From NCBI GenBank assembly GCA_013416795.1, contig RQSC01000397.1:1-44072 (forward strand): DNA of 44,072 bases. The letters run 5' to 3'. The notes under the pieces are model-generated. The model saw nothing but the letters and a program-made list of their open reading frames with translations. It was not told the origin of the DNA and ran no database searches. Numbering within the stretch: the stretch's first letter is position 1; each line of letters begins with the position of its first letter. The position numbers were made by a program, and so were the translations under genes. Positions 4,701-23,066 of the stretch are shown piece by piece. The DNA is from Prasinococcaceae sp. CCMP 1430 (Eukaryota > Prasinodermophyta > Palmophyllophyceae > Prasinococcales > Prasinococcaceae).

Positions 4701-7274
4701 CGCACCATATGTCAAGTAAATGTGAAAGGGGTCGCGAATGCAGTCAACGGTGTCGCGCCAGCACAGCAGGAGCAAACGTCGCAGCCACCATGCCCGCTGG
4801 GGCGGCACGCGGTCTGCCTCCGAGGCCGATGTGTCGACTGTGCAGGGGAGGACCTCCGGCGCGCAGCACAGAGTGGTAAAGTCGTCACGCAAAGCACCGC
4901 GCATGGCCACGCCTGCACGCACGAGCTCCTCCGCGTCATTCGCAGAGCCCCGCACGAGCGCATCGAGCACTCTGTCCGCCACATGCTCGTGCTCGCGCGG
5001 CGCGTATGCAGGACCCACCGCCTCGAAGTGCGCGCGCACGTCGCGCGCCGAGCCCGAGTACACCATCCGCCCGTCACCGCTCAGAATGAGCACGCGGTCG
5101 AACAGCTGGAAGGCATCTGCGCGCGGCTGGTGAATGCTCATCACGCTGGTGACGCCACCCTCCCCGAGAGCGCTCAGGATCCCCAGCACGCGGGTGCTAT
5201 TGCTCGAGTCGAGGCCGCTGGTCGGCTCGTCGAGAAAGAGCAGGCCCGGCTGCGTCAGCAGCTCCGCAGCGATGCTCACACGACGTCGCTCGCCGCCGGA
5301 CAACCCGCGGCGGCTCGCGCTGCCAATCGTCCCACCGGCCACCTTCTGCAGGCCCAGGCGGGTCACCAGCTCGCACACCCGCCGCTCGCGCTGCTCGCGC
5401 CCCATTTGGCGCGGCAGCCGCAGAGCGGCGTGAAACAGCAGATACTCGAGCACCGTCGAGGTCGACGGCAGCGCATCCTCCTGCGGCACGTAGCCTGATA
5501 TGCTGCGAAGCGCCTCGGCGCTTGCGATCTGGCCGTTCACACGCACCGTGCCGCGAACGCAACGGCCCCACAACCTGCCCGACAGAACGTCTAGGAGCGT
5601 CGACTTGCCGGCACCCGATGGACCGAGGATCGCGCAGAGCCCCGTCGACTCCGCACACGAGTGCGCGGCCACGCCGGAGACATCGTGGAGCACGCACGAA
5701 GGCGCCTCCCACGACGACCCCTCGGGAGTATAAGATACATCGTGCCAGCTAAGCGCAAGCATGCTTGCGAACAACCGGGTGGTCGGAAGGCCGGCGGTGG
5801 CAAGCGTGGTGTCGTTGTTTGGGACCAGTGTGAAGCTCTGGGACCGCGCTCCCTCGCCTTCCTGCTGATGTTTTGCCTGCAACGCGTCGTGCCATCTGGT
5901 GCTCAGGGGCGCGAGCAAGAATCCAGCCCCTGTGAGTGCCGCCACCGCGGCGCCAAAGCCATACATGACGGCAGCGTCCAGTACACTCTTGTGTTTGTCA
6001 GCAGGGGGCGCTGGCGGCACGGGGACGGGCGGGGCGTCCTGGTACAAGCAGCCTCCCACGTGGCACGTCATCCCGAGAGATGTAAATTGGCTGAAGACAC
6101 AACGAAACGCGCCGTCCTCCGTTGAAGGATTGGCCTCGCACTCAAGGGTCGATGGGACGCTCGACTGCGGAGTACTCAGCGGGTTGCAGTGATGCTGCCA
6201 GTACTTGTACGTCTTGCCACTGGGCGACTTCGCTGGGGTGCAATCCGTGCAATCGCCGCAGCTAAAGATGTTGTACCCCGGGCATTTGGGAACATCCGCG
6301 GGTGGGCACTGCACCTGCCCTCCCACGCAATGGATAGTGATGCAGCTCTCCGGCGGTGTGCTTTCGCCGCCGCCGTGCCACAAGGGGCTGGCGCACTCGG
6401 TCACACTCAGCGAGCATCCCGTGAAGTCTGCATCCATCACACCCGGGTACGCGTAGTCGTACCGTTCGGGAGGGATCTCCGGGATGACCTGCACTGGGGT
6501 GCCGCCGTACTCCTCGACGCGCAGGACGTGGGTCCCATCGTCTGCGTCAGTTGCGTTAGCGTACGCCATCAGAAACGAGGTCGCCGGCTGGAGGCTGTCG
6601 GGCGAAACGCACACAGTTTCCATCGCCCTGAAGCCTCCGCAGACGCAGCTAAGACGCTTGCCCCCTTCAGACGCGAGCTCCTCCTCTGTTGGCAGCAGCG
6701 TGTCGCTCGTGCAGTTCGTCGCGGCTGTGCCGTCAGGCGACTCAGGACAGGCCGAGGCATCCACACACACCGAGCAGTCTGGGCCGCGCCACCCACCCCC
6801 CGCGGGACACTTGCAGCTCGCGCAGTTCTCCGACGACGACGAGCTGTCCGTGGAGACGAGTGTGCCCCCATGCAAGCACGCCGGCTTGCCGACCTTCATC
6901 GCGTTCGCACAGTTACGAGCAGCCGCGCCGCTGCTGTCACCGCCGCCTTCAACGCCACCGCCGCCGGTCGCATCTGGTGACAGCCACGGCAGAGGCGCTC
7001 CGCCCGCCACCCCCTCACCGCCTGGGTGGCCGCCCCCCGTGGCTGCTCCCGCTCCCCCCAGCGCGAGCGCGAGCGCGAGCGCGAGCGCGAGCGCGAGCGC
7101 GAGCGCGAGCGCGAGCGCCACGCGGCCCCGTATGCGCACGCAACCTCGCGGCGCGCGCGCGCGCGCGGCGCGCGAAGCGCGTGTCATCGGCGCCAAGCGC
7201 GCCTTACCCCGTTCCCCCCCCAACAAGGGGGGGCGTGGGGGCGGGGGGGGGGGGCGGCTGACGCAGTGTGGCAC
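1738..7274 (-). CDS. Double-length ABCG transporter with Cys-rich N-terminal ectodomain
   Basis: ABCG proteins use ATP to move lipids or small molecules across membranes. Exon 1 (7274-2054) and exon 2 (1904-1738) flank a 149-bp GT-AG intron; together they give about 1795 residues. Order: signal peptide whose core is an (Ala-Leu)n run; Cys-rich, EGF-like ectodomain (about 115-430); one membrane segment (about 437-460); NBD1 (about 526-774) with Walker A GPSGAGKST, signature LSGGERRR and Walker B LLFLDEPTSGLD; TMD1; NBD2 (about 1211-1459) with the same motifs; TMD2. Exon 2 supplies the last membrane helix and ends LRLRAWRGR. Without splicing, the frame ends in a non-conserved tail. The extended N-terminus recalls plant ABCG24/28-type proteins, which to my knowledge have one NBD-TMD unit. 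A second Met at 7187 avoids a poly-Pro leader and may be the real start. The substrate cannot be inferred. Confidence 0.92.
2897..3630. repeat. Intragenic direct repeat, copy in NBD2 of the ABCG gene
   Basis: These 734 bp match 4952-5685 at a constant offset of 2055 with no indel. I found three differences: 2907/4962, 2916/4971 and 3090/5145. The repeat covers nearly all of the second ATP-binding cassette. Similarity ends abruptly at both edges. Confidence 0.95.
4952..5685. repeat. Intragenic direct repeat, copy in NBD1 of the ABCG gene
   Basis: Partner of 2897-3630, about 99.6% identical including synonymous positions. It encodes most of the first ATP-binding cassette. The adjacent transmembrane domains of the two halves are clearly diverged. 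Confidence 0.95.
7061..7118. repeat. (GCGAGC)n hexanucleotide repeat in the ABCG signal peptide
   Basis: About nine and a half units of a 6-bp repeat. On the minus strand it encodes alternating Ala and Leu, forming the hydrophobic core of the ABCG signal peptide. Each gained or lost unit would change the core by two residues without a frameshift. Confidence 0.93.
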
Positions 7275-7880
7275 GCGCCCCCCCTGAACGAGCGCACAGA
7301 AGGCCCACGTCCTTCAACCTCCACGCGCCTCGTGCCGTTCGAGCACTGCGCGTGCTTTTCGACGTGATTGTTCACCAGCGCTCTTTCTCTATCGCACCTC
7401 TTCGGCTCTTCCACAGAGTCTGTTTGTCGGTCCGAGAGACAGTCACAGGATTACATTACATTATCACTGCATTAAAAATAATGATTCGTGTGGCCACGGG
7501 CGACCAAGTGGAGCCAGGGTGGCACTCGTCGCACCGCTGCCGATAGGCTCGCGTGGTGCGCACGCGACGATACCACACCCCGCGCGGGGCGCGGGGGTGC
7601 CGCGGGCCACGGGCGGCCACAGAAGGGAGGTGGCCGCTGCGCCGGCGAGGCGGAGCTCTCGCCGCGGCGCGCCGAGCATCGGGCGGCGGGTGAGTGTTAG
7701 GAGCCGAGGTGGTGGTGGTGGGGGGGCTGCAGAGCGACAAGGCGTGTTTTTTTGAGCAGTTCGACTGACGACTGCGGAGCGGGTGCGTGTGCGGGTGGTG
7801 TTCGCCCGCGCCGTGCGCCGCCCGGCGCACCAGAGCCTTCGCAGGGCGGGCGGACCGGCGGGCGCGTGCATTCGGCTGCT
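7275..7880. promoter_or_regulatory. Shared upstream region of ABCG and VPS13
   Basis: The two genes are divergent, so this roughly 0.6 kb must hold both promoters. An AT-rich island at about 7448-7492 stands out from the GC-rich surroundings and includes ATTAAAAATA at 7471-7480, the same 10-mer as at 1524-1533 near ferritin. The assignment is by position only. Confidence 0.5.
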
Positions 7881-10800
7881 ATGTTCGAGAAGCAGGTGGC
7901 GTTCCACCTGCAGAAGTACCTTGGGAAATACTGCTACGGTCTCGAAAAGGAATCGCTGCGCCTCTCGGTGCTCAAGGGCGACATCGTACTGCGCGACCTC
8001 GCACTGAAGCCTGAGGCGCTCGACGAATTGCGGCTTCCCATCAAGGTGCGCGCGGGCTATGTAGGGAGCGTCACGCTGAAAGTGCCCTGGGGATCCCTCG
8101 GAAAGAAGCCCGTTGAGGTGCAGCTCGATTCCATCTTTGCCGTTGCGGCACTCGCCGATGCGGATGCAGCTGGCACCGGCGAGACCGACGAAGACCTCGA
8201 GACCGCGGCGCGAAAGAAGCGCCTGAAAGCCGCAGAAGACGCTTGGGTTGGCGCACAGGGCGCAGCAACACAGAGTGGCGACGACAGTGGCGGTGGGGGC
8301 GGCTGGGTGAAGTCATACACCGATACGGTGCTTGGCAATCTCCAACTTTCCATAACAAACGTGCACGTTCGCTTCGAGCACAACCAAGATGGAGGCGCTC
8401 GAGGTGGCTCGCGCTTCGCAGCTGGGCTCCTACTGCGCTCGCTGGAGGCCCACACTGTGGATGAGAGCGGCGAGAAGGCCTTCGTTGCGCGCAACGCGCT
8501 GGGAACCATGCGCAAGCGCATGACGCTCGAAGGGCTCGCCCTCTACCATGACACCGACTCGCTTGCGCTGCAGCCCCCGCGAGGGAAGGCGTGGGACGTG
8601 CTCAGCGCCGACGAATGGCGTCAAATGTTCGGAGTTTCGCCCGTGCACGCAGAGCAGGAAGTGCAGCCAGCGCAACATACGTACGTGCTCTGTCCCATCG
8701 ACCTCGGTGTCCAGTACGTCCAACTTGGCGGCCCCGAGGCCGCCATGAGAGCGCACGGCGAGCCCATGCAGAGCGCAATGATGCATGTGCAAGAGATCGT
8801 CCTACGCATCGATGCGACGCAATACCAAGGAGTTATGCAAGCCATAGAAGCTCTATCTCGCGCGACGGCCGCAGGTGCTAGTGCGTTCGCACATTTGCGA
8901 CCGCTCCGCCGGCCTCGCTACTGCCCCGGTCGCTGGTGGCGGTATGCGTACGAGGTGGTGCGGCGCACGGCGATCCGCAAGCATTCGACGATTCGATGGT
9001 CTTCAGTGAAACGACTGTGCGCATGCCGACGTGAGTACATCCATGCTTACGCGTCCGTGCTGATGGGCGAAGGAAGTGAGAGCGAGGACGCAGCCCGAAC
9101 GGTTGATAGATTGGACACTGAGCTTGAGTACGAAGCTGCACTCTTGTTCCGTTGCCTCGCGCATACCGAGGCAAAGCGTCGCACGCGCAGTAAGCAGCTG
9201 GCGGCGCAGAAGAAAGTAGGCTCTTCCTGGTACTCATGGTGGACTGGCAGTAGCTCCAAGAAGGACGCGGCAGATGCAGAGGCCGCTGCTGCTGACGCAG
9301 CCGATGGTGAGGACGGCAGTATGGGCGAGGAGGAGTGGGCCACGCTGCAGCAGCTCGTCGAAGACAGCAAGTGGAAGCCACCAGCAGCAAGCAGCGAGGC
9401 GGCTGAGGCAGTGCAGATGGCCGTCAAAGTCCACATTGCGAAGCTCGGATTTGACCTTGTGCAAAACGGCACTGGGAAAGCGATGGCGACGCTCATAGAC
9501 GGTCGCATGCTCAATGTTGGCGTCGATGCTACCGTGAGCAACGCCTCAACTGCCGTGCAAGTGTCGGTGGCGCGCTACTTCTTGGGGGATCTGCTTCGAA
9601 GCGGGCAATCTAATACCGCGATCGACGTTCTGGTCGAAATGCCCCCGCCGCACGGGGATGCCGCCGCGAGTGTTGATATGCGATGCCGTGCAGATCTGAC
9701 ATCGCCACTCTTCAGGGTGCAGAGCTCGGAGGTCACCGAACTTGTTGAGTTCTTCAAGTTGCCCTCGGCAGACATCGATCTGTCAACGACTGTGACGGTG
9801 GCCGCAGGGGTGGCAAATCAGGCCGCAATCGAGGCGCAGACGCGTATGCGAAGTGCATTGGCATCTCGCACAAAGCTAGCACTCTCGCTGAACATTGGCG
9901 CGCCCCAGATTCTTGTTCCGAGCATCGAGATGCAGGAGGGCGCAGTCGACGAGCGGAGTATGCTCCTGGTGGACTTTGGTCGTCTCGAGGTGCGCACTGA
10001 CCCCTCGAATGACGAGAACTACGATCACTTTGGTATCACGCTGCGTGGTGCCTGCTTGCACCTCTTGTCTCACAACGAGCCTCTCGATGACGCCTACATT
10101 GATGACTTGGGTGGGACTCACAGCAGCACGCCGATTCTGGAACCTGTCACCGTACACGTCGGCATCGACGTGCAGCACTCGGGTTCCACCGCCGTTGCTG
10201 CTGCAAGGGTCGGTATTGTCCTCGACGACATACGCTTGCATGTGTCACCTGCACGGCTGCGCCAATTGGTATATGTCCGTCAGACGGTGAGCGCAAGCGA
10301 CGGCGACGGCCGGTCGACTGTACACACAGCTGTCACGAAGCCTTGGCGCGAATTCAACACCTTTGACACAAGTGGACGCGTTGCCGTGCGTTCTTACGAT
10401 CGGTGGAAGCAGACGACGACCTGGATACCTGCGTGGGCTGCAATCTCCGGCCCATACCTGGTGTTGTGCGAGGACGAGGATTCTGTGCGCCCGAAGCAAT
10501 GGATATTCCTCGGAGGTGGAAGGGTTGTTTCCGAGGCGGGTTCGAACCTCTGTCGTCGCGACGGTGCTGCAACTATCGTTTTGCACTCCGAGACGATGTC
10601 AGTGAAGGAAGCGCTCGATGCCTTTCAGGACACGAACGTGTGCGCTCTGGAGCTTGACAGCAGTGCCGCGTCAACGTGGGCAGCAGCCCTGCGCCTCGCA
10701 ACGACTGCGAATCGAGGGCTCGGGCTGGCGCAGGTCGCTGCCGCGACTACAGTCTCCGTGCCCGGCAGCTCCGCCGAAAGGAAGCCGGCATTGTATGTTG

Positions 10801-13800
10801 CTGGCATTGTCCCATCGATTGAGGTCAAGCTCAGTGGCAACACTCGCTTTGGTGCGCCCGTGCCCGTTGCTGCAGAACGCCCAATCGCGCGCTTGTCTCT
10901 AAGTGGTGGGCGTGTTGCGATGGAGCAGTACAGCACGTGCATGGACGTCCGGGCTGCCTTTTCTTCGCTCGACGCGAGAGACGAGCTGAGTGATGCTATG
11001 GGCTTGCCTATCCTCGCGTCTTCCTCACAGGGCGTCGACTGCCTGCCAGGCTCGGTCAAGGAGGCACTCGACAAGGTCGAAGGGGACATGCGTGTGTTCC
11101 AGGATGATTGTGATGACGTCGCCAGTGATGATGTTGTTGCCAGCGATATCGCCACCGCGCGCACCGACCGCGTCGCTGCAGCTCCGGCCTGTAGCTACAG
11201 TGAGTTGCTCGACACCATTGGACATGCCGGTCACTTCGAACGCCAAACTGATCTCCTCTCTGCCAGCATCAGCATGGTCTCATCGGGCAGTTGGCGGCAC
11301 TCGGCTGCAACGCCCGAGACAGATGTCACTCTCACGCTGCGCCCTTTTCGTCTTTTCTGTCGAGTGCCGACAGTGAAGACGCTCTTGGCGTTGTCAGAGC
11401 AGCTCGCCGATCCAGCGACGGCGTCTGGCGAGGCCAAAGATGCAGGCACAGGTCCGCTCGCCGAAGACTGGGTGGAACCCGTGGATGATCGGTCGCTCGA
11501 GACACCGGCGGAGCAGCCGACGCAGGAGAAGAAGTCGACTGGTGCAGCACGCCAGAACGCGGCAACCTTTAAGCTGCGCGCGAAGCTTCAGAACGTGACG
11601 TTGACTTTGCTTGACGACGATGCCTCCATGGTGGCGGCACTCGCTCTCTCGCGCGTGGCTGTGGAGACCACCTCGTGTCCCGACGGTGGCATGGTCGTAG
11701 ATGGAAGGCTTGGCGGGATCAAGGTTGTTGATGGATATTGCGCGTCGGATGAGATGTACTGGGAGGCAATCCGCATGCACAATCCAAGCGACGAGATGCT
11801 TGTGCAATTGCGCTATGAAGTGGTGCCTTCTGCGAACGCACATCAGTTCGGGTACGCATCTGCAGCAGATGTCAAGGCTGCCAGTCTACGTATCGTGTAC
11901 CTCGCCCGCTTTATTGCACGCATAACCGAATATTCGTCGCGGCTCGCCACGGCAACGCCAGCTTCTGTGGACGTCGACCAGTCGACACCGAACGTTCGCG
12001 TGCAGGGAGCCGCACACGCATCAGGCGGTGGGCGCGGACGCGAGGAGAACGTCCTGCCTCTGAAGCTGTCGATCAATATCGATGCCCCAGTCCTCGATAT
12101 CCCTCGGTCGCCAGAGAGTTCGGCGTGCGTGCGGATGGACCTTGGCCGCCTGCGCGTCAGCAACGCACTCGAGAATGCTTGCGACGTAGTTACGGTCGCG
12201 CTCGAGGAGGCATCGATCGAGCTGAGAGGGCCAGGGATAGGCTCGGTCAACGTCACGGACGCGCCGCTCGCTGCGCAGGTCGAATTGACAAAGCCACTCT
12301 TCGCATCCGATGGGCGGTCCGCTACGGCGGCCAAGGTATCTCTAGGGGATGTTGGTCTCCTGGTGACTGAGAAGAGCGTGTCTTTCGTGCTGTTGGTCCT
12401 TGAGGAAAATCTGGGAAAGACAGCAACCACGACCCCCGCGCTGGTCACGGACGGGCAAGCTGAGGGCGCGTCTGATCAGGCCGATGCGGGCAAGAGTGAG
12501 TCACAGGACATGTCCTCTGGGAGCGAATCGACAGGTGACGTCTGTTTAAGCGTCTCGGCAACCCTCGATACCATCAAAGTGCGACTCGGACAGGCAAATG
12601 GAAATGATGTGGTGGCGATTGCAGAACTTCTGTCTACAGATCTCAAAGCGAGCTACGTTGTGACGGCAGATGTTTGCGCCCGGGCCTCCATCACGGTCGG
12701 TGGGCTGGCTATCACGGACGCTCAGACCGACACAGATCGCCGGGCGCTCTCGCTGCTTGGATGGGACTACTCTGTGTCGCCGCCAGCGCAGCAGACGTTC
12801 TTGCACCTCACCTACGACGACAGGGGCAAGACCCGAGGCGCTACAGCCTCCATTCGTGTGACAGAGCCGACGCTCAGGCTCAGAGTGGAATGGGCTTTCT
12901 CACTGCTCCATTTTGTCAACTCCGCGAGCGACGGCAACAGACCCAAGATTGGTAGCGACGATCTCGTTCTCAAACCAGGGCCGTACGTTGCGCCGAGCGA
13001 TACGGTCTTGTCGGAGCGTTGCCGTTTACTGGCAGACGCAACAGGCGATGGCATGCGCTATATTTTTGATGGCAATGGCAACGCTCTCGAAATTCCCATC
13101 ATGCTCACCCACCAGGGCGCGCTCATCGTCGTCGGCCATGGGCACGAGTTGCATTTCACAAACACGCGCATCGTCAACTCAGAGAACTTGAGCTCTTGTA
13201 CGTACCTCTCCTCTGGCGCTAGAGTCACTTTCGGTGACTCCGTGACCTTTGATGGATGCGGTGGAGAGCCGTTCGAGGCCGAGGGAGCCCTTGCTACGGA
13301 GGCAGCGCCTGCGAGCGCGCAACCTTTCACCACAACTATCGACATCGTCGGTGCCAACGTGACATTGCTATCGAAGAATGACCGAAATGACGCGGTCGAC
13401 GGCGTGGCGCTGAATGTCCCTGCCATGTCGCTGCTGTTCAGTCAGCGAGGGGCTTCAGTCAGTGCAGAGGCATCAGTGAGCGGCGCGCGAATGGAGCACG
13501 TCTTCTACACGCATGGCGAGGCAAGCAATCCTCCAGTCAGAGCGCAGATGCGGAAGCTCATGGACCCATTCGACTTCCGCTGCACTTATCCCCCCACCGG
13601 TCAGGAGGATGCGCTAGCAGTTACTTCACTCAGAGCGAGCGTCGATGCGGACACCCTCGACGTTCTATCCAGGCTCACAAGAGCAGTGTCGACGTTTGTA
13701 GTGGGCCAATCGCCACTAGTCAAAGCTTGCACTGAATACTCGCGCGTCCTACCCGAAGCGATGCTCCAGGGGACCGCGCTTGGCAGCCAGCTCAGCTTTT

Positions 13801-16800
13801 GGCAAGTCCGCGCGCCTCTGGGTTACGCCTCACTTGGCCACGTGGCCATGTGCGGGAATGACCCACCGACTAATCCAACATTGGTGGTAGACAGCGCACG
13901 CACTGCGGTCGCAAGCCATGGCATGTGTGCCCTGGCGCGGCCGACTGGCTTCGAGCCCATGTGGGTGGACCCCGACAAAAACTTTACCATCTGGCGACCT
14001 GTGCCGGCGTCGGGATATGTGGCGATGGGTTGCGTGGTTGGCGCCGGTGTGGAACACCCCTCGCTCGACATTGTGCAGTGCATGCATGAGTCACTTATTC
14101 GCCAATCGTCTTGCTACGAGTGCGTCAGCGCCACTGGCGTGAGCGCAAACGAGCTGGTCCGCGTATGGCAGATTTCCGGCCCGCTTCGCACCTTCACCAT
14201 ACGGAACGACTCGGATGTGAGCAGGGTGTGCACCATGCGCGACCCTTCGCTGCTCTACTCCATGCGAAACGCACGCACACGTTTGCCGAGGACGCTCGTG
14301 TCGCCCACAGGCAGCGACGCGAGCACCAACTCACGCTTCGGACGTTATGCGCACTGCTTTGCAATGCAGGCGGTATTCGTGCAGAAAAAAGATAATGGCC
14401 GCGGTGGATTTACAATCTGGAAGGTGCAGCCCCCCGCTGGGTATGTTGCTCTTGGAGACTGGATCGCAGACGGTGACGATTACCCGACGGCCCCGTCGGT
14501 GGTGCTCAGGGATCATCCTGACTGCGTCGCGCCTTCCGGACGGTGGACGCGTGTCTGGAACTACGACCGAGCGAAGGGGTATAAGCACGGGTTGGCGCTC
14601 TGGGCACCAGTTCCGCCATCAGATGACTATGTAGCGCTGGGGTGTGTGTGGTCACAGCGGATGCCAACGGCCGTGACGGCCGTGAGGTGCGTGCACCGCA
14701 ACCTGGTGGAGACGTGCGGAGTGTCGGACAGGAGTAGCGCGTATCAATTCGCATTCAAGTACACTGAGTTGCGGGTGCTTCGCACAGTGAAGTCCAACTC
14801 GTATTTCGCTGTGCTGCCCAGTGCCAGCCCGTCCGCTAAGTTGTGGCAGCTGGTAGATTTCAAGAGCTCTTCAAGAACGTCAGAAGATGTGATCTTCATG
14901 ACGTGCCCGGGGATCGCCGTGACGGCGTATGATATGCGGCCAGGTTTGAAGAACCAGCCACTCCTTCAGCTAGCCGCCTCTTCGATCTCAGCTGGCATCG
15001 TACAGACGAAACAAACGGTGGCTGTCAGAGGCACGCGTGACATGCAGACGATAGAATCCGCTTGCTCCCTCACCCTCGCCTGCTTCAACCCCCAGCTGGG
15101 CGCATGGGAGCCCTTGGTGGAGCCTTTTCAGGTCCAGCTTAGCTTTCACTGCGAGGCCGAGAGTGAAGCACACGAGCTGCCAGCGAAGACACTCATCCTC
15201 GTGCGCGGCACTTCCGCACTCGAGTTGAATGCAAGCAGTGCGATGCTGTATCGCCTCATCGACTCGTCGCGCGCGTTTCTCGCGGCCAGTGAAGGCGGCA
15301 ACACCCTTGCGGTCCGCAATAGCTTGAGTATTCCTGTGTGGCTTCGTGCTGTGCACAGCTCTTCGCGTGGGGATGACTACCATGTGGTTGCAAGTGGTGA
15401 GCGAACGATCCTGCCCATGCCTGTCGAGAGCACTGAGGATTTAGGTGCTCGAGCGCACCTGGAGGCACCAGAGTACATTAGCGTGCAGATTGTCGCACTG
15501 AGGCAAGTTCCACATCGCAAGGGACGATTGCAATGCCAGGTGCGCGCGCGTGTCGATCGCACTGGGCATAGCAAGGCCGTGACGCGCTGGAACCAGGCGG
15601 ACAGCGGCGGCTCGTCCGATGCGCCTGCTTTCTCCGAGGTCGCTTTCGATGAGTGCTTTCTGCTGCACGCCGACACAGCAGCGTCAACTTGCCCAATGCT
15701 GCATTTCGAAGCTGGGTGTGCCCTTAGTGGGGACCCGACCAACGCAGAGGTGCTGCGGGCGTCTGCAACGATTGATGTGAGCGGGCTCCCGCTTGCTCGC
15801 GCACTTGAGACGGTTGACCGCACCTCGCTCATCCTTGCTCACTGCGAAGGTGAGCTACATCTCGATGTTCGCATAGCAAGGTCCGATGGCTACGCGAAGA
15901 GGGCAAGTTTGAGCCTCGAGAAGGCCACGTCGGCCGCGGAAGCTGGTGCTGCACCCTGCAAGCTCCTCTTTAGCGTCCGCGATCCGCATGGCGACGCGAG
16001 CGTCGCTGAAGATGGCGCTGGGTGGCATGACATGCCCGTGCATGTGGCCATGCCGATGGTGCATGACATCCTGGAGAGCGGCGCATCCGCTGCAGGGATC
16101 CCGCGCACTTCGCACACCGTTATTACAAGCGTCACTATTCAGGGCGGCAGGCGACTGGTAGACATCCGAGCGCCCGTCGTTGTCCAGAACAAAACTGGTC
16201 ATGAATTGGCACTCGGCATCAGCAACTCGGCGGAGGGTATCGCCGGCAGCTCTACGGATTTGCCAGGCTCACCAAGCCCTCGTGCAGGTGCCTTCAATGT
16301 GACCGAGCACGAGGTTTTCGAAAACCAGCGATTTCTGCCCTTCAAGGGCTTCAAAGGGACCCACCTGTTCCCAACTGAACGCAAGTCGTGGCAGTACACG
16401 GTGCACGGCAAGGGCACGAGCTCCAGCAGCGATCCTCGTGAGGGCGGTGTTCGAAAGCATCCCGATGGTCGGGCCGCCCAGCCCTGGCTCGAGGATGGCG
16501 CGGAATGGGTCAGCGCGTGGGAGGTAGACCTCCTCGGCCTCGCGCAAAACGCCGTCGACAAAGACGGCTGGGCTTACGCATTCGACTTTTCAGGGGCATC
16601 CATGGGCATGTGGAAGCCTCACGCCGGCCAAGGCAAGAATGGGACGGGATGCTTCGTGCGTCGTCGTAGATGGTTGAGGCGGGCTCGGAGTCCAGGCTCG
16701 GCTTTAGGATCGAGCGCCAGTGCAGGCGCAGGTGCGTCGGGGTCTACCGCACTCTCCCTCCGGGGCTCTGATTACCGTTACGCTGGTTCCATAGGCCAGG

Positions 16801-19800
16801 GGGGGCTCAGCGCGCTGCCGCACTCGGCTGTGTCCGCATTGTTGGGCACGGAACTCGTCTTTGCCGTGACAGAGGGCGATGAGCGGATCAGTGGCTGGAG
16901 TGAAATTGCGCACAGCCAGAGTGGAGGGGGGGTCGTTCCGTCACTGCTTCGACCCCAGCGCTGGCTCATGCGCTGCGCATCTGGTGCGGATTACACATAC
17001 CTCTGTGCTGAGGCGTCGCAGACCAAGATCGGTGTGTCTGCGGACTCGGATTGGACTCTAACGATCACCGCCCCATTGAGCGTCACCAACGCGCTTCCGT
17101 TCCCCGTAGCGGTCGAACTGTGGGAGAAGCCCAAGTACGAAAAGCAGCCGACGAAGCAAATGGCTCTGTCGGACCTGAAGCCTGGCGACACATGCAATGC
17201 GTATCACGTTGATTTGGCGCGCCCGTCATACCTCTCGCTGCGCCACGGCATGGCAGGCGGCGGAATCGGGAGGGTCCCTCTGTTTGTTGTGCACGACTAC
17301 GTGCAGGCGCGCGCCAAGCGGCACATGGACGAGGCCGCGTTGGTCCTGGGCGATGAAACCTACGAATTGCGTCTCCCCAGCGGCCGGACTGTTGCCATTA
17401 CCGTCGAGAGGAAGTGTGCTGACAATTTTGATGCGGCGGCGTCGGTGTCGGTTCGCTTTCACGCGCCTTTCTGGCTCAACAAGCACATGCGAATGCCCCT
17501 CGCGTACAGCATCTTGCGCCAGCGTGGGTCGGTAGGAGACGACGGTGCCTTCAATCCAGCCGAGGCGTCGCACGCGACGCTTGTTGAGGAGATAGGCTGC
17601 GGTGGATTAACGAACATCGCTGCCGTGCCTGCCAGTGTCGGGGATGCGGACACCCTGCTACTCCGCGTGGGCGTCCTGACAGGCGAAGAGACGGTGTGGA
17701 GCGGTAGTGTGCCCATCTACGACGGGGGCACGGGCGCGCCGGCTTTTGGAACGTATGCTATCGACCTCGTCGAGGCCGGTGGGCGCATGACGTTCCCTGC
17801 AGCCGTTGCCATCGAGGAAGGGGAGGGCGCCTACGCGTCGACTGCAATGGTGAACGTAAGGCCACGTGACACGATCACAAATCGCGCAGGCCTCGACCTG
17901 TGGCTCTTTGAGGACACGGTCGAGGACGGCCGCGGCACCCTGCTGCAAGCCGGCGCCGTTGACCGTGGCCTCTCTTGGTCTGTTGACGACATGGCCGAGC
18001 GCGTGGTGCGCATCGCGGTGGACGCCGGGGGCGTGCCCAACACGCGCGTTGTGGTGAGGGGCACAAGCGAGATACGTGTTTACGGCGCCATCCAGGAGGA
18101 CGTGCATCTCTGCTGCATCTGCCAACCGGGCAGTCTGGGTTCGTACCACTTGGAGCTCAACCTTGTGGCTCTGCACGAGTTGCCGTACCGCATCGAGAAT
18201 CGGTCAGAGTACGAGCTGGCTCTGCTCGAGACCAGCCAGAGGCCTGTTGCTCTGAGCCCTTTCGCGGCTATGGGCTGGGTGTGGACGAGCAGCGACCAGC
18301 TTGACCAGGCCATGCGCATCGGTGTCACTGGCAGCAACGCGGTGAGCGACGAGCTGCGGCTTGACGATGATCCGCGGCTCTTCGAGTGCTCCGCATTTGG
18401 CGACGCAGACCAGCGCCTCCGCGCGTGGCTGCAGGACGATGGGCATAAGCGGGTGTTGGTTGTGGCGCCTTCAAAGCTCTCCATGGTGCAGCACGCGACC
18501 ACGCCTGCCTTTGACGAGTCATCAGCAAGTGGAAACATGGGAGCATTGCGCTCAGCCAATGCAGCAGGTGTCGGCGTTCCCGGCGTTTGCGAGACGCGCA
18601 TGCTGCTGCCCGAGATTGGCCTGAGCGTCATCGACAGCACTCCTGAGGAGCTCGCGTACGTCTGTCTCCATGGCGCGAGTGTGGGTATCACTCGATGCAG
18701 GACAGTGACGCAAGCTCTCGTGAAGGTACAGTCCGCGCAAGTCGACAATTGCCTCGTTGGTACGCCTTTCCCGGTGATGCTCGTGCCAGGAACGTCGCAG
18801 GAACCGGACATCTCATTCACGCTGGTGACCTCGAACAACCTTCCTGGCGTCACGGAGGTACCCTTCTGCAAGGTAGCGCTCTCGAGCGGTACGCACCACG
18901 TCTACGTGCACGAGCGTCTTGTGTGGCGACTGATGGATTTTGTGGCGGAGATCGGTCTGGAGAGACTGGCGGTGCCTGACGGCGATGCGCCGCGTGCTTT
19001 CGACAACCTGGTGCGACTGGACCGCCTGCGCATCGAGCGCGGCAAGGCCAAGGTCACAATCAAGGTGTCTCCCGAGAATCGCCCTGGCTGGCTGTCGAAC
19101 GACGCCGTCAGCGCGGGGCTGAGCCTAGTGGACGGTGTGGCTCTGCCTTTGAATCTGCGGCCCATCACGCTCGACAGATTTTATGACCGTCAGAGCAAGC
19201 TGACCGCGCGCCTTGTCAAGGCAGTGACCGACCAGATGATTCGCCAAGCCATGCGGGTACTCACCAAAAATGTGGGGGTGCTCCTGAGCAACGTCGCCAC
19301 GTCAGTGCAGTTCGTCAACAACAAACTCGCCGGGCTTTCAATGGATAAGAAGTACATTCGCGAGCGCGCCAAGGCGCGCAGCGCTGTGCAGATCGGTGAC
19401 CTTGCGGATGGCCTTGTCGAGGGCAGTGACGCGCTCGCGCACGGGCTTCTTAGGGGAGTCACTGGCGTGTTCCTGAAGCCTGTGGAGGGCGCTAAAAAGG
19501 ATGGGATCAAGGGTTTCGTCAAGGGGGTCGGCAAGGGTGTCATCGGCCTCGCCACTCAGCCTGTTACAGGCGTGATCGACTTCGCTACGCAAACCGCTGA
19601 GGGCGCAATCAGAACCATCGACAAGGTCACGGACAAGGTCAAGGAGGTCGGCGAGGAGGCTCTGACAGGGAGTTCAAGTGCTGACGGCGCGGGCCACGGG
19701 CGTGCCCGCGTCCCTCGCGCCCTGCTCGACGGACGCATCGAAGACTACGAAGAGAGCCTCGCCATGGCATACCACAGCCGTCGTGAGCATGACCATGCTC

Positions 19801-19841
19801 AGCAGCTTTTGATGCGGAAGGCGTCGAGGAATTTGTTCTAG
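7881..19841 (+). CDS. VPS13: VPS13-family bridge-like lipid transfer protein
   Basis: VPS13 proteins are rod-like channels that move bulk glycerolipids at membrane contact sites. The chosen Met at 7881 starts the conserved chorein N-terminus (MFEKQVAFHLQKYLGKY); an in-frame Met at 7752 would add 43 unconserved residues. One open frame of 3986 residues. Order: chorein N-terminus; VPS13 repeat region with a WWRYA motif (about 350); PH-like module (about 830-945); a beta-helix-like stretch rich in G-D-N turns (about 1716-1796); two Vps62/DUF946 modules (about 1970-2073 and 2171-2273), each with FTIW and GYVAxG motifs; the adaptor-binding (SHR-BD/VAB) region from about 2750; and a C-terminal VPS13_C/ATG2-like helical part (about 3756-3920) with repeated GVTG and KGVGKG motifs. 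PH plus Vps62 inserts are typical of plant-type VPS13. No intron is evident over 12 kb. Confidence 0.96.
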   Translation: MFEKQVAFHLQKYLGKYCYGLEKESLRLSVLKGDIVLRDLALKPEALDELRLPIKVRAGYVGSVTLKVPWGSLGKKPVEVQLDSIFAVAALADADAAGTGETDEDLETAARKKRLKAAEDAWVGAQGAATQSGDDSGGGGGWVKSYTDTVLGNLQLSITNVHVRFEHNQDGGARGGSRFAAGLLLRSLEAHTVDESGEKAFVARNALGTMRKRMTLEGLALYHDTDSLALQPPRGKAWDVLSADEWRQMFGVSPVHAEQEVQPAQHTYVLCPIDLGVQYVQLGGPEAAMRAHGEPMQSAMMHVQEIVLRIDATQYQGVMQAIEALSRATAAGASAFAHLRPLRRPRYCPGRWWRYAYEVVRRTAIRKHSTIRWSSVKRLCACRREYIHAYASVLMGEGSESEDAARTVDRLDTELEYEAALLFRCLAHTEAKRRTRSKQLAAQKKVGSSWYSWWTGSSSKKDAADAEAAAADAADGEDGSMGEEEWATLQQLVEDSKWKPPAASSEAAEAVQMAVKVHIAKLGFDLVQNGTGKAMATLIDGRMLNVGVDATVSNASTAVQVSVARYFLGDLLRSGQSNTAIDVLVEMPPPHGDAAASVDMRCRADLTSPLFRVQSSEVTELVEFFKLPSADIDLSTTVTVAAGVANQAAIEAQTRMRSALASRTKLALSLNIGAPQILVPSIEMQEGAVDERSMLLVDFGRLEVRTDPSNDENYDHFGITLRGACLHLLSHNEPLDDAYIDDLGGTHSSTPILEPVTVHVGIDVQHSGSTAVAAARVGIVLDDIRLHVSPARLRQLVYVRQTVSASDGDGRSTVHTAVTKPWREFNTFDTSGRVAVRSYDRWKQTTTWIPAWAAISGPYLVLCEDEDSVRPKQWIFLGGGRVVSEAGSNLCRRDGAATIVLHSETMSVKEALDAFQDTNVCALELDSSAASTWAAALRLATTANRGLGLAQVAAATTVSVPGSSAERKPALYVAGIVPSIEVKLSGNTRFGAPVPVAAERPIARLSLSGGRVAMEQYSTCMDVRAAFSSLDARDELSDAMGLPILASSSQGVDCLPGSVKEALDKVEGDMRVFQDDCDDVASDDVVASDIATARTDRVAAAPACSYSELLDTIGHAGHFERQTDLLSASISMVSSGSWRHSAATPETDVTLTLRPFRLFCRVPTVKTLLALSEQLADPATASGEAKDAGTGPLAEDWVEPVDDRSLETPAEQPTQEKKSTGAARQNAATFKLRAKLQNVTLTLLDDDASMVAALALSRVAVETTSCPDGGMVVDGRLGGIKVVDGYCASDEMYWEAIRMHNPSDEMLVQLRYEVVPSANAHQFGYASAADVKAASLRIVYLARFIARITEYSSRLATATPASVDVDQSTPNVRVQGAAHASGGGRGREENVLPLKLSINIDAPVLDIPRSPESSACVRMDLGRLRVSNALENACDVVTVALEEASIELRGPGIGSVNVTDAPLAAQVELTKPLFASDGRSATAAKVSLGDVGLLVTEKSVSFVLLVLEENLGKTATTTPALVTDGQAEGASDQADAGKSESQDMSSGSESTGDVCLSVSATLDTIKVRLGQANGNDVVAIAELLSTDLKASYVVTADVCARASITVGGLAITDAQTDTDRRALSLLGWDYSVSPPAQQTFLHLTYDDRGKTRGATASIRVTEPTLRLRVEWAFSLLHFVNSASDGNRPKIGSDDLVLKPGPYVAPSDTVLSERCRLLADATGDGMRYIFDGNGNALEIPIMLTHQGALIVVGHGHELHFTNTRIVNSENLSSCTYLSSGARVTFGDSVTFDGCGGEPFEAEGALATEAAPASAQPFTTTIDIVGANVTLLSKNDRNDAVDGVALNVPAMSLLFSQRGASVSAEASVSGARMEHVFYTHGEASNPPVRAQMRKLMDPFDFRCTYPPTGQEDALAVTSLRASVDADTLDVLSRLTRAVSTFVVGQSPLVKACTEYSRVLPEAMLQGTALGSQLSFWQVRAPLGYASLGHVAMCGNDPPTNPTLVVDSARTAVASHGMCALARPTGFEPMWVDPDKNFTIWRPVPASGYVAMGCVVGAGVEHPSLDIVQCMHESLIRQSSCYECVSATGVSANELVRVWQISGPLRTFTIRNDSDVSRVCTMRDPSLLYSMRNARTRLPRTLVSPTGSDASTNSRFGRYAHCFAMQAVFVQKKDNGRGGFTIWKVQPPAGYVALGDWIADGDDYPTAPSVVLRDHPDCVAPSGRWTRVWNYDRAKGYKHGLALWAPVPPSDDYVALGCVWSQRMPTAVTAVRCVHRNLVETCGVSDRSSAYQFAFKYTELRVLRTVKSNSYFAVLPSASPSAKLWQLVDFKSSSRTSEDVIFMTCPGIAVTAYDMRPGLKNQPLLQLAASSISAGIVQTKQTVAVRGTRDMQTIESACSLTLACFNPQLGAWEPLVEPFQVQLSFHCEAESEAHELPAKTLILVRGTSALELNASSAMLYRLIDSSRAFLAASEGGNTLAVRNSLSIPVWLRAVHSSSRGDDYHVVASGERTILPMPVESTEDLGARAHLEAPEYISVQIVALRQVPHRKGRLQCQVRARVDRTGHSKAVTRWNQADSGGSSDAPAFSEVAFDECFLLHADTAASTCPMLHFEAGCALSGDPTNAEVLRASATIDVSGLPLARALETVDRTSLILAHCEGELHLDVRIARSDGYAKRASLSLEKATSAAEAGAAPCKLLFSVRDPHGDASVAEDGAGWHDMPVHVAMPMVHDILESGASAAGIPRTSHTVITSVTIQGGRRLVDIRAPVVVQNKTGHELALGISNSAEGIAGSSTDLPGSPSPRAGAFNVTEHEVFENQRFLPFKGFKGTHLFPTERKSWQYTVHGKGTSSSSDPREGGVRKHPDGRAAQPWLEDGAEWVSAWEVDLLGLAQNAVDKDGWAYAFDFSGASMGMWKPHAGQGKNGTGCFVRRRRWLRRARSPGSALGSSASAGAGASGSTALSLRGSDYRYAGSIGQGGLSALPHSAVSALLGTELVFAVTEGDERISGWSEIAHSQSGGGVVPSLLRPQRWLMRCASGADYTYLCAEASQTKIGVSADSDWTLTITAPLSVTNALPFPVAVELWEKPKYEKQPTKQMALSDLKPGDTCNAYHVDLARPSYLSLRHGMAGGGIGRVPLFVVHDYVQARAKRHMDEAALVLGDETYELRLPSGRTVAITVERKCADNFDAAASVSVRFHAPFWLNKHMRMPLAYSILRQRGSVGDDGAFNPAEASHATLVEEIGCGGLTNIAAVPASVGDADTLLLRVGVLTGEETVWSGSVPIYDGGTGAPAFGTYAIDLVEAGGRMTFPAAVAIEEGEGAYASTAMVNVRPRDTITNRAGLDLWLFEDTVEDGRGTLLQAGAVDRGLSWSVDDMAERVVRIAVDAGGVPNTRVVVRGTSEIRVYGAIQEDVHLCCICQPGSLGSYHLELNLVALHELPYRIENRSEYELALLETSQRPVALSPFAAMGWVWTSSDQLDQAMRIGVTGSNAVSDELRLDDDPRLFECSAFGDADQRLRAWLQDDGHKRVLVVAPSKLSMVQHATTPAFDESSASGNMGALRSANAAGVGVPGVCETRMLLPEIGLSVIDSTPEELAYVCLHGASVGITRCRTVTQALVKVQSAQVDNCLVGTPFPVMLVPGTSQEPDISFTLVTSNNLPGVTEVPFCKVALSSGTHHVYVHERLVWRLMDFVAEIGLERLAVPDGDAPRAFDNLVRLDRLRIERGKAKVTIKVSPENRPGWLSNDAVSAGLSLVDGVALPLNLRPITLDRFYDRQSKLTARLVKAVTDQMIRQAMRVLTKNVGVLLSNVATSVQFVNNKLAGLSMDKKYIRERAKARSAVQIGDLADGLVEGSDALAHGLLRGVTGVFLKPVEGAKKDGIKGFVKGVGKGVIGLATQPVTGVIDFATQTAEGAIRTIDKVTDKVKEVGEEALTGSSSADGAGHGRARVPRALLDGRIEDYEESLAMAYHSRREHDHAQQLLMRKASRNLF

Positions 19842-20161
19842 TTGGACTAGTCTATTCATTCGCAGGTAGTCAGGGACTAGTCAAATGCCATCGTAGCAAT
19901 CACTTTTGACACGGGAATGGGCATGCACAGAGAGCTGGGCGTGCCACAGGCGAGCGTCCGGGCGGCGCTCCCCGCCACCGCACACACACACACCGCCACC
20001 ACTGTCAAATACCCCCTGTGCGCGCGTCGAGAGGAGAGAGCGGGCGGGCGCGGTGCCTGCCTGCCCTCCTCTCGCCCCTCCCACGGCGTCCCTCCGCCCC
20101 GCGCCCACGAGCGCGCCCCACGCGGGGGCACCGCCCGCCCACCAGGGCAGCCGCGTGCGCC
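19842..20161. promoter_or_regulatory. VPS13 3' region and selenoprotein K upstream region
   Basis: About 320 bp between two genes on the same strand. The 9-mer GGACTAGTC occurs twice, at 19844-19852 and 19874-19882. A (CA)n-like stretch lies at about 19980-19995. No TGTAA was seen for VPS13, so its 3' end is not defined. Confidence 0.4.
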
Positions 20162-20470
20162 ATGCCCTACGTGTCGTCGGGCGGCCAGGTGCAGCAGCGG
20201 CGCACCTGGCTGCGCCTGTCCCTCGTGACGGACTTCCTCGCGGCGGTGATGAATACGGTGTCGTTCTTCTTCCAGACGCTTATGAATCCTGAGGCGGCCG
20301 ACCGCTACGTGAATGAGCGCCGCGCGCGCGGTCACATCGGCGGCGGCGGCGGCGGTGGCGCGCAGCGCCGCGGAGGCGGGCAGCGCGGCGGCGCTCGCAT
20401 AGCCGGCATGGGCAACCTTCGAAAGACTGTTAACCACCCCTCCATGGGCGGTGGTGGATGAGGAAGGTGA
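20162..20470 (+). CDS. SELENOK: Selenoprotein K with in-frame TGA for selenocysteine
   Basis: SelK is a small single-pass ER membrane protein linked to ER-associated degradation and protein palmitoylation. The frame starts MPYVSSGGQVQQ, then TWLRLSLVTDF, matching the family N-terminus (M-V-Y-x-S-N-G-Q-V, WRLSLITDF). A membrane helix follows at about residues 17-42, then a Gly/Arg-rich cytosolic tail. The TGA at 20459-20461 (codon 100) is followed by GGA AGG TGA, so the end reads GGGG-Sec-Gly-Arg-stop, the diagnostic SelK C-terminus (GG-Sec-GR). The true stop is at 20468-20470, giving 102 residues against about 94 in human. A SECIS-like hairpin follows in the 3' UTR. A conventional caller would stop at the first TGA. 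No intron. Confidence 0.94.
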
Positions 20471-20500
20471 GGGCATAGCACGGCATGGCGCAGCGCACGC

Positions 20501-20586
20501 GAGGCGGGCTCACATGACGCCGCGGCGGGAAAGACGGCAGGAAAGACCTCCTCCGCCCGCGGCCGAGAATCCCACGAGCCCGCGCA
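20501..20586 (+). promoter_or_regulatory. SECIS element of selenoprotein K
   Basis: The 3' UTR hairpin has every part of a eukaryotic SECIS. Helix I pairs GCGGGCTC (20504-20511) with GAGCCCGC (20576-20583). The core has ATGA at 20514-20517 and GA at 20565-20566. Helix II has seven GC pairs (20519-20525 with 20557-20563), a bulged C at 20556, then four more pairs. AAA sits at 20530-20532 at the start of the apical loop, 12 nt after ATGA. A 3-bp mini-stem in the apex (20539-20541 with 20547-20549) fits type 2. It begins 52 nt after the Sec codon, a short spacing. Folded by hand. Confidence 0.87.
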
Positions 20587-20667
20587 ACACACTCGCGTCG
20601 CAGCGCCCGCCGGCACGCGCCACCATACTCCCGGTATGCTCTGCGACCTTGGCTACCACCGGGTGTC

Positions 20668-20672
20668 TGTAA
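20668..20672 (+). terminator. TGTAA poly(A) signal for SelK
   Basis: TGTAA is the usual chlorophyte poly(A) signal. This copy lies about 200 nt after the SelK stop and downstream of the SECIS, so the mature 3' UTR would keep the SECIS. Confidence 0.6.
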
Positions 20673-20922
20673 TTGTGTATCTTCTTGAAGTATTACTCCA
20701 GTACTAGAGCCGAGTAGCGTACACTTGCGTGCGACCCACTGCGCGAGGCGACCCGCGCTTGTAAACAAGACGAGCGGCCACGCGCGGTGCTTGCAAGCCT
20801 CACCGCAGCTGCCCCCCCCCCCCCCCGGCGGCGAGCGCGGTGCCGCGCGCGGACGTTGTGGAGCGTCAAGAGATGTGAGTCTGTTGTGATTAGCGAGCGA
20901 GCATGCGCGCGCATTCGCATTA
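20673..20922. other. Spacer between convergent SelK and PP4R1
   Basis: No gene seen. It contains a run of 15 C at 20812-20826. It presumably carries the 3' UTR of PP4R1; no minus-strand TGTAA was found. Confidence 0.5.
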
Positions 20923-23066
20923 TTATCTGGCGCCCAGTGCGGCCTGGATGGAGACGTCTGCGTCGACGTCTTCCTCAAGAGCCTCAAGGGCCCTGCTTAC
21001 GTCTGGGAGGCACCCCAGCAGCGAGTGCTGCGCGAGCGGTCCGCCGGCGAGCGTTTTTGCTAGCTCAAGGCGTACGTTGGCGACGGGATCCGATGCGAGT
21101 CGCAGCAACATGGGCACGAACTCCGCCACCATGATGTCGGTGTCCACCTCGCGCGCCATGTGAGAACACACGCGTGCGTACAGCTGGCGCTCACGGTAGT
21201 TGCTGCTCAGCGACATGGCGCGCAACGCCTCGATGGTGCCGCGCGCGAGCGCGTCTGTGGCAACATTGCGCACATTCGAACGCCGCACGAGCGCGCACGC
21301 CAGCACGCAAGGCGTGGCTTCCGCAGCGCGATTGCGCACTGACGCCACGGGGTCACGCAGGAGCGCGAGCGCTGCCGGCAGCAGGGCCTCGGCGGCAACG
21401 CGTGCGCCAGCGAGCTGCGCTAGCTGCGCAAGCGTGCCTGCCAGCGCTTCGCGCAGGCGCCAATTTTTGCAGCGCTCGGACACGACATCCCTGGCACTTT
21501 CGCCCGCGGCCTCGAGGGCGCCCCCTTCCCCAACCACGCGGGCCAGCGGCAGCCCCGCGATCCACCCCGCCGCGTCGGTAGGCCTCAGCTGCGCGGCGAA
21601 CTTTGGTGCGGCGGACAACGCTGCCACTGCCACCTCGTCGAGGTCGCGCAAGAATCTCGACATGGCGGGCACCAGCGCGTCCTGCGCCGCGTCCGGCCCG
21701 ATCACCTGTGCTAGCTCGTGCAGCGACAGTGCGAGCGTGCGGCGCACCTTCCATTGCAGCGCACTGCACAGCGAGTCGAAGGCGCCCCTCAGCTCGTCCC
21801 AGCGCTCCGCACCTAGCGTGAGCGCCACTGCTGGCAGTGCAAAGGCACACTCGTAGGTGAGGTCGGTACTTCCGGGCGGGCCAGCCCCACCGCCGCCATC
21901 TGGATCGGGATCCGCCATCGCAGTGAAGTAGCTCACCACATCCGGTGAGACTTCCTTCCCGCCACAGCGTGCAACGAGCGCACCGAGCGAGCGCAGCGCC
22001 GCTGTGCGCACCCACTGGCTCACGTCGTTTGCGAGCTCCTCGAATACCTCGAGCAGCTCGATACATTGCTCCTGGTCGCACACGGCCGCGACATCGACGA
22101 CGGACTCAGCGACAGCCTTGCGCACGCTCCACGCTTGATTGTGCGTATGTGCGTGCGCGTGTGTGCGTGCGCGTGTGTGCGCGCGCGCGTGTGAGCAACG
22201 TCACGCGCACTAAGCGCGCGCGATGGATCGGGTCACGCAGGAGGCCTTCGTGACGGGCGGGTACGACGACGCACCTCGCGCAGCTGCGCGCCTCCTGCGC
22301 GCCCTTTCGCACGCGCGTTCGCACCTTCGTCAGAGGCGAGCTCGACGAATACCCTGAGCAGCCTTTCGTGCACATCTTCGGCCGCCGCCCCATCCCCCTC
22401 AGCGACGGCCGCCATCACCGCCGGCAGGGCGCGAGCGAGCGCTGCGCGTACCCGAAACTCTGTGTCCTGCCTCAGCCCGAAGCACACCTGCGAGAGCTGC
22501 AGGCAGCCCACTCGGGCGCCCATGTGCTTTGCGCTCTCGCGCGCGACGGCGAGGCCCACAACGCGGCTCTCCTCATCGGCGTCTCCTACCAGCAACTTAA
22601 TCGACGCCACGCACCGGGCGTGCCCCGCCGTTGGAGCGTTCTCGGCGAGAGAAGCAAACGCGCGCACCGCGGCCTCTTGCACCTCGTCGACGTCATCAGT
22701 GAGAAGCACGACAACAGCGTCGAGCAGGCGAGCGAAGGACGTGAGCGTCCCTGAGTCGCCATCGTCGGCGCAACGGGCACTCCACGCGGCCTCGTTTCTG
22801 GTTGCGCAGCACACGGCGAGCCTTGCAAGCTGCTCGGCCGTCGTCTCGCGGATCTCGTCGTCGTCGTCCTCACACAGCTCGGCAAGCGCAGGCAGCACTG
22901 CGGGCAGCGCGGTGGCTCCGCCCTCAGCGCCCACGGCCTCGGCGAGCAATCGCACCTGCACCAGCCGCTGCACTGCCACCTCCGAGCCCGCGTATTTCAG
23001 AAAACGCTCCACAGGACTCACGCTCTCCTCGTCCGCATCGAGGTCGCTCGCATCGAACGAGTTCAC
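20923..23066 (-). CDS. PPP4R1: PP4 regulatory subunit 1 (HEAT-repeat protein)
   Basis: PP4R1 is a HEAT-repeat scaffold that binds and directs the catalytic subunit of protein phosphatase 4. Exon 1 (23066-22325) and exon 2 (22133-20923) flank a 191-bp intron with donor GTGCGA and phase 1. The joint recreates the family signature D-x-AWSVRKA at the boundary. Further family matches are the SPVERFLKY-like N-terminus, CAFALPAVALTLG, LQWKVRRTLALSLHELA and FLRDLDEV. The product is about 650 residues, shorter than the human protein (about 950), because the acidic linker between the two HEAT blocks is reduced to a short Gly-rich stretch (DPDPDGGGGAGPPG). It diverges from the SLC35B gene and converges on SelK. 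Confidence 0.94.
22137..22194. repeat. GT/GC dinucleotide-rich microsatellite in the PP4R1 intron
   Basis: Alternating purine-pyrimidine run of GTGTGCGTGCGCG type, wholly inside the intron 22134-22324 and next to its 3' splice site. Such runs can adopt Z-DNA. Confidence 0.85.

Follow-up and report, generated by a model that had tools for sequence, protein, structure and literature searches.

Genomic evidence for a selenocysteine-containing SelK gene with a nearby SECIS element in a green-alga-like eukaryote

In proteins of the SelK family, a single membrane helix at the N-terminal end precedes a tail rich in Gly and Arg; they usually end in UGR-stop (U, selenocysteine, Sec), and elsewhere act as redox and quality-control partners in the endoplasmic reticulum (ER). 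Eukaryotic SECIS elements follow a common set of rules, including: (i) a core of (A/G)TGA and GA, (ii) a closing helix II, (iii) AA placed 10-13 nt after the quartet, and (iv) an outer helix I. Sec-containing SelK has been published in green algae since 2007, with Sec-containing SelK, SelT, and five glutathione peroxidases (GPx) listed for Ostreococcus tauri (PMC2375036). Misannotation of selenoproteins is documented in vertebrates (PMC12822975).

Here we describe a gene in a 44,072-nucleotide stretch of DNA (the window; contig C88 of a 24.5 Mb assembly in 145 contigs) which, with a probability that we put at about 95%, encodes a Sec-containing SelK read through the UGA at 20459 via a SECIS element at 20504-20583, in a green-alga-like eukaryote. 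Given that Sec-containing SelK is reported in green algae (PMC2375036), the gene is of a well-known kind, and ordinary eukaryotic Sec insertion is its best reading. The reading corrects a protein that standard gene prediction truncates at its Sec codon.

Coding frame and predicted protein

The open reading frame (ORF) at 20162-20458 (+) matches the Pfam profile PF10961 (SelK_SelG) with an E-value of 2.7e-16 and 60.4 bits (cut-off 23.3), residues 2-80 aligning with positions 1-81 of the 86 in the profile. This bears out the SelK identity proposed in an earlier reading made from the letters of the DNA (the sequence-only reading). The start codon is the ATG at 20162; the frame is open back to 19910 with no ATG upstream, runs to 20470 without an intron, and encodes 99 residues ahead of its first TGA. 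Its 3' end reads TGA (20459-20461), GGA, AGG, TGA (20468-20470), and translation of the first TGA as Sec yields the C-terminus ...GGGGUGR and a total of 102 residues, exactly as had been proposed. Downstream of the predicted helix the tail is rich in Gly and Arg. Features of the coding region are as follows.

20162..20470, + strand: SelK coding sequence with UGA as Sec, stop included, 102 residues (PF10961 profile match; translation)
20216..20272, + strand: predicted membrane helix LSLVTDFLAAVMNTVSFFF, residues 19-37 (highest 19-residue hydrophobicity, Kyte-Doolittle mean 1.6)
20459..20461, + strand: UGA codon for Sec100, the third-last residue, followed by Gly-Arg-stop (translation)
20468..20470, + strand: terminal stop codon, likewise UGA (next in-frame TAA or TAG not before 20705)

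Alternatively, the protein may truly stop at the first TGA, as a 99-residue product without Sec, in which case the UGR end and the hairpin downstream would be chance products of a GC-rich genome. This is the form that a plain gene prediction yields and the form in which the gene is deposited: a homology search of the protein database returned, as its sole match, the window's own frame in a 99-residue version (33 contigs, 5 member sequences), cut at the TGA as the sequence-only reading had expected of automatic annotation. No other SelK relatives were found in the protein database or in viral contigs, and a search of the PDB with SelK gave two matches, both unrelated (E 0.35 and 0.44). Against a chance origin, just 2 of the 1008 TGA triplets in the whole window (all frames, both strands) are followed by Gly-Arg-stop, that of SelK among them. 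Taken with the shuffling results and the other genes described below, we consider termination at the first TGA very improbable.

The SelK gene lies downstream of a long ORF (7752-19841, +) of 4029 aa in a single frame without intron, the first 1416 residues of which match VPS13 (VPS13_N); an ABC transporter (1878-7274, -) lies beyond this VPS13-like frame. On the minus strand, ORFs of 199 aa (19877-20476) and 185 aa (20430-20987) overlap SelK and its 3' region in antisense, and are probably GC-rich chance frames.

The SECIS element: parts, fold, and rarity

A hairpin with the parts of a SECIS element starts 33 nt past the stop codon at 20468-20470. Its components are listed below.

20504..20583, + strand: SECIS element with apical mini-stem (shape scan, shuffles, folding)
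20504..20511, + strand: helix I, 5' arm GCGGGCTC (paired to 20576-20583 in the minimum-energy fold)
20514..20517, + strand: SECIS core ATGA (shape scan)
20519..20529, + strand: helix II, 5' arm, 11 bp (shape scan)
20530..20532, + strand: apical unpaired AAA, 12 nt past the quartet (element inspection)
20536..20551, + strand: apical mini-stem plus loop (shape scan)
20552..20563, + strand: helix II, 3' arm, with a single bulged base at 20556 (shape scan)
20565..20566, + strand: SECIS core GA (shape scan)
20576..20583, + strand: helix I, 3' arm GAGCCCGC (minimum-energy fold)

Helix I, the ATGA/GA core, the 11-bp helix II, and the AAA after 12 nt were thus located where a hand fold had originally placed them, and the hairpin agrees with every one of the eukaryotic rules given above (core, helix I, helix II, and AA spacing). 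Its minimum-energy fold has an energy of -38.4 kcal/mol (z -2.86), a value matched by 1 of 200 shuffles, and includes the 8 bp of helix I (GCGGGCTC/GAGCCCGC). Helix II adopts another register in this unconstrained fold; the SECIS-shaped fold (core open, bulged 11-bp helix II, mini-stem) has an energy of -36.9, i.e. 1.5 kcal/mol above the minimum, under an energy model that credits nothing to the non-Watson-Crick quartet of the core.

Rarity was assessed using a SECIS-shape scanner written from these rules, applied on both strands to the window plus loci L001-L040 (342,912 bases), a set in which overlapping loci cause some sites to be listed two to four times. In the strict scan (inner length 32-60 nt), the SelK site stands at the top of the 23 SECIS-like sites listed, with a total of -51.6 kcal/mol. 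The next three places, ranks 2 to 4, go to sites 3' of TGA-containing GPx genes (loci L015, L010, and L011, in that order); rank 7 belongs to GPx locus L009, ranks 13 and 14 are one site at GPx loci L013/L014, and the sites ranked 5 and 6 lie on the minus strand of the window and were treated as background. When the inner length is allowed to reach 85 nt, a window site at 30768 beats SelK in total (-59.9), and the 60-nt limit used for both ranking and shuffles was chosen after this longer site had outscored SelK. Inner lengths are 37-43 nt in five control elements from the strict scan, and 60 nt (the GPx gene on contig C135) and 57 nt (SelT) in two elements taken under relaxed rules.

Among 5000 dinucleotide shuffles of the 452-nt 3' region (20471-20922), the total of the SelK site was reached by none and its inner energy by 2, while 79 contained some SECIS-like site. 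The last count illustrates how readily GC-rich 3' regions fold, and is the part of the result that suits a 99-residue protein followed by a chance hairpin; the absence of any shuffle reaching the SelK total argues the other way. Rfam reported no SECIS in the window, in the SelK 3' region at E-values up to 10, or in locus L007 at E-values up to 5. This miss says little about SelK because five GPx control loci, searched at the gathering threshold, likewise gave no SECIS match. A MAFFT alignment of six other SECIS stretches misplaced one core and was rejected as the basis for a covariance model.

Selenoprotein genes, Sec machinery, and lineage of the assembly

The assembly carries at least eight Sec genes, i.e. 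the eight that were found: SelK, SelT, and six GPx. SelT (an Rdx match on C107) has a CQSU motif (CxxU) containing TGA. The GPx search returned 9 matches on 7 contigs, counted as 7 genes; the catalytic codon is TGA in six of these (C68, C3, C89, C135, C76, and C75), and the seventh (C11) has Cys. A strict SECIS-like site lies downstream on the sense strand in 5 of the 6 TGA-containing GPx genes, and strict scanning of the Cys-GPx locus found none on the sense strand. For the C135 GPx and SelT, a candidate SECIS-like site appears under relaxed rules only. A search for Sep15/SelM gave no match in the assembly, and its controls were silent too.

Two of the GPx loci display further peculiarities. 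In L009 (C68), the Sec-containing segment LDLGAAKGKVALVENVAGLUGTTVKDY occurs twice in tandem, with Sec-like TGAs at 1480 and 1561 (81 nt apart), reflecting either exon duplication or assembly error. SECIS elements of the CC type are known in animals; in L012 (C135), the SECIS-like hairpin at 2226 seemingly has a C-rich CACC, 12 nt on, in place of the apical AA.

SepSecS, which catalyses the final step in making Sec-tRNA in archaea and eukaryotes, is encoded on C123 (TIGR03531, 488.3 bits, cut-off 224.85; PF05889, 360.3 bits). A PSTK-like frame on C54 matches in two collinear pieces of 36.3 and 20.1 bits, far under the cut-off of 382.35. The sequence-only reading had held that the lineage probably makes selenoproteins, a view strengthened by SepSecS, Sec-containing SelT, and six Sec-containing GPx genes in the same assembly; of the machinery genes that it proposed to look for, tRNA-Sec and SelD were not found in partial searches and eEFSec domains were unmatched in assembly and controls alike.

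For tRNA-Sec, neither the Rfam model (53 of 2117 candidates scored) nor two patterns found a gene in the assembly, and its absence is not shown, given the fraction of candidates scored with the model. Four Rfam-model matches were rejected, as they sit on tRNA-Leu and tRNA-Ser genes, and the pattern matches fall on ordinary, mostly organellar tRNAs, except that 4 of the 17 loci of one pattern have no tRNA gene according to ARAGORN. SelD gave 0 matches and 0 candidates. The eEFSec domain searches gave 0 matches in the assembly and are uninformative, since 14 control genomes were equally silent. Among 15 selB-like matches, considered as candidates for eEFSec, the six frames read resemble other translational GTPases on inspection (EF-Tu, IF-2, LepA, and eIF2-gamma). 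These searches were partial, taking one exon at a time in an assembly whose completeness is unknown, so the misses are no proof of absence. While the missing tRNA-Sec would fit a protein ending at the first TGA, seven further TGA-containing genes of selenoprotein families, together with SepSecS, tell against that ending.

The source organism looks green-alga-like, judging from its sequences. Among the 120 SepSecS matches listed of 2778, the closest other than the query itself stands at 72%, and the nearest ones with names all come from green algae, namely Sanguina aurantia at 63%, Chlorella sorokiniana at 56%, and Coccomyxa elongata at 64% over 87% of the query. The plastid genes of contig C136 support an alga. 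By inspection, this contig (476,838 bases; L004, L033) holds tufA, rps7, rps12, other ribosomal protein genes, psaC, the terminal part of psbA, and numerous tRNAs; it looks like a plastid genome contig, although 477 kb would be large for a plastid. Giant organelle genomes are known in Sanguina, the genus of the closest named SepSecS match among those listed. The same tRNA array with equal spacing occurs on C41 (9285-17197, L018-L021) and C98 (213277-221189, L026-L029), either because the repeat is a large one or because the assembly holds it in duplicate; adjacent frames in L018 resemble mitochondrial nad3 and nad4L on inspection.

UGA spacing and comparison with known systems

Under the preferred reading, a Sec-containing SelK encoded by a presumably nuclear gene, ribosomes would translate 99 codons up to the UGA at 20459, where the 3'-UTR SECIS at 20504-20583 would recruit SBP2, eEFSec, and Sec-tRNA(Sec) for insertion of selenocysteine. 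Gly and Arg would then be added, and the second UGA (20468) would terminate translation. The product is predicted to be a single-pass protein, presumably of the ER membrane, with a Gly/Arg-rich tail and a Sec near its C-terminus, and may act as SelK does elsewhere.

The SECIS core follows the end of the Sec UGA by 52 nt and that of the stop UGA by 43 nt, the two in-frame UGAs being 9 nt apart. A gap of about 52 nt close to the lower limit, as noted from the outset, is thereby confirmed by measurement: the reported minimum distance between Sec codon and SECIS is 51 nt, the exact counting points being left unstated in the relevant passage of PMC3737529. Such proximity raises a second alternative, namely that SelK is a selenoprotein whose working SECIS is located further downstream, the hairpin at 20504-20583 being too near the UGA. 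In its favour, the gap sits at that reported minimum (PMC3737529), and gaps elsewhere in this genome are far larger: 470 to 920 nt in six other genes (seven genomic values, any introns counted in), and about 1083 nt, by position subtraction, in the C75 GPx. However, the strict scan found no second site within 20471-20922, and the SelK hairpin has the full set of SECIS parts and scores above the GPx elements found in this genome. A more distant working element therefore seems highly unlikely, and we retain the hairpin at 20504-20583 as the SECIS of the Sec-containing SelK.

A speculative idea, which we regard as a long shot, is that where the SECIS lies could in itself decide between Sec at the first UGA and termination at the second, given that 52 and 43 nt flank the reported 51-nt minimum. 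The Sec UGA stands 42 nt from the base of helix I, and if the minimum is counted to that base, the idea of a distance ruler would be undone. A selenoprotein gene with two UGAs has a precedent in vertebrate Dio2, where the second of the in-frame UGAs is considered to serve mainly as a stop (PMC3316567). The close pair of UGAs found here, bordering on the reported distance limit, offers a convenient natural test of how a Sec UGA is discriminated from a stop UGA.

In its selenoprotein set, the organism resembles O. tauri and O. lucimarinus as described in PMC2375036: Sec-containing SelK and SelT, several Sec-containing GPx, and SECIS elements with an apical mini-stem. It departs from O. tauri in the base preceding the UGA of the SECIS quartet, a position of which one element among eight here has G and the other seven have A, whereas in O. 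tauri it is G in all but one (PMC2375036). A C just outside ATGA was considered as a lineage mark and dropped, the position at issue in PMC2375036 being the A of ATGA. With the SelK family, the gene shares the PF10961 profile match, the single predicted membrane helix, the Gly/Arg-rich tail, and Sec third from the end; it differs in the long glycine run of its tail, a SECIS 33 nt past the stop, and a stop that is itself UGA. The element likewise resembles eukaryotic SECIS with an apical mini-stem in its ATGA/GA core, helix I, 11-bp helix II, and AAA after 12 nt, but is very GC-rich and lies near the Sec codon.
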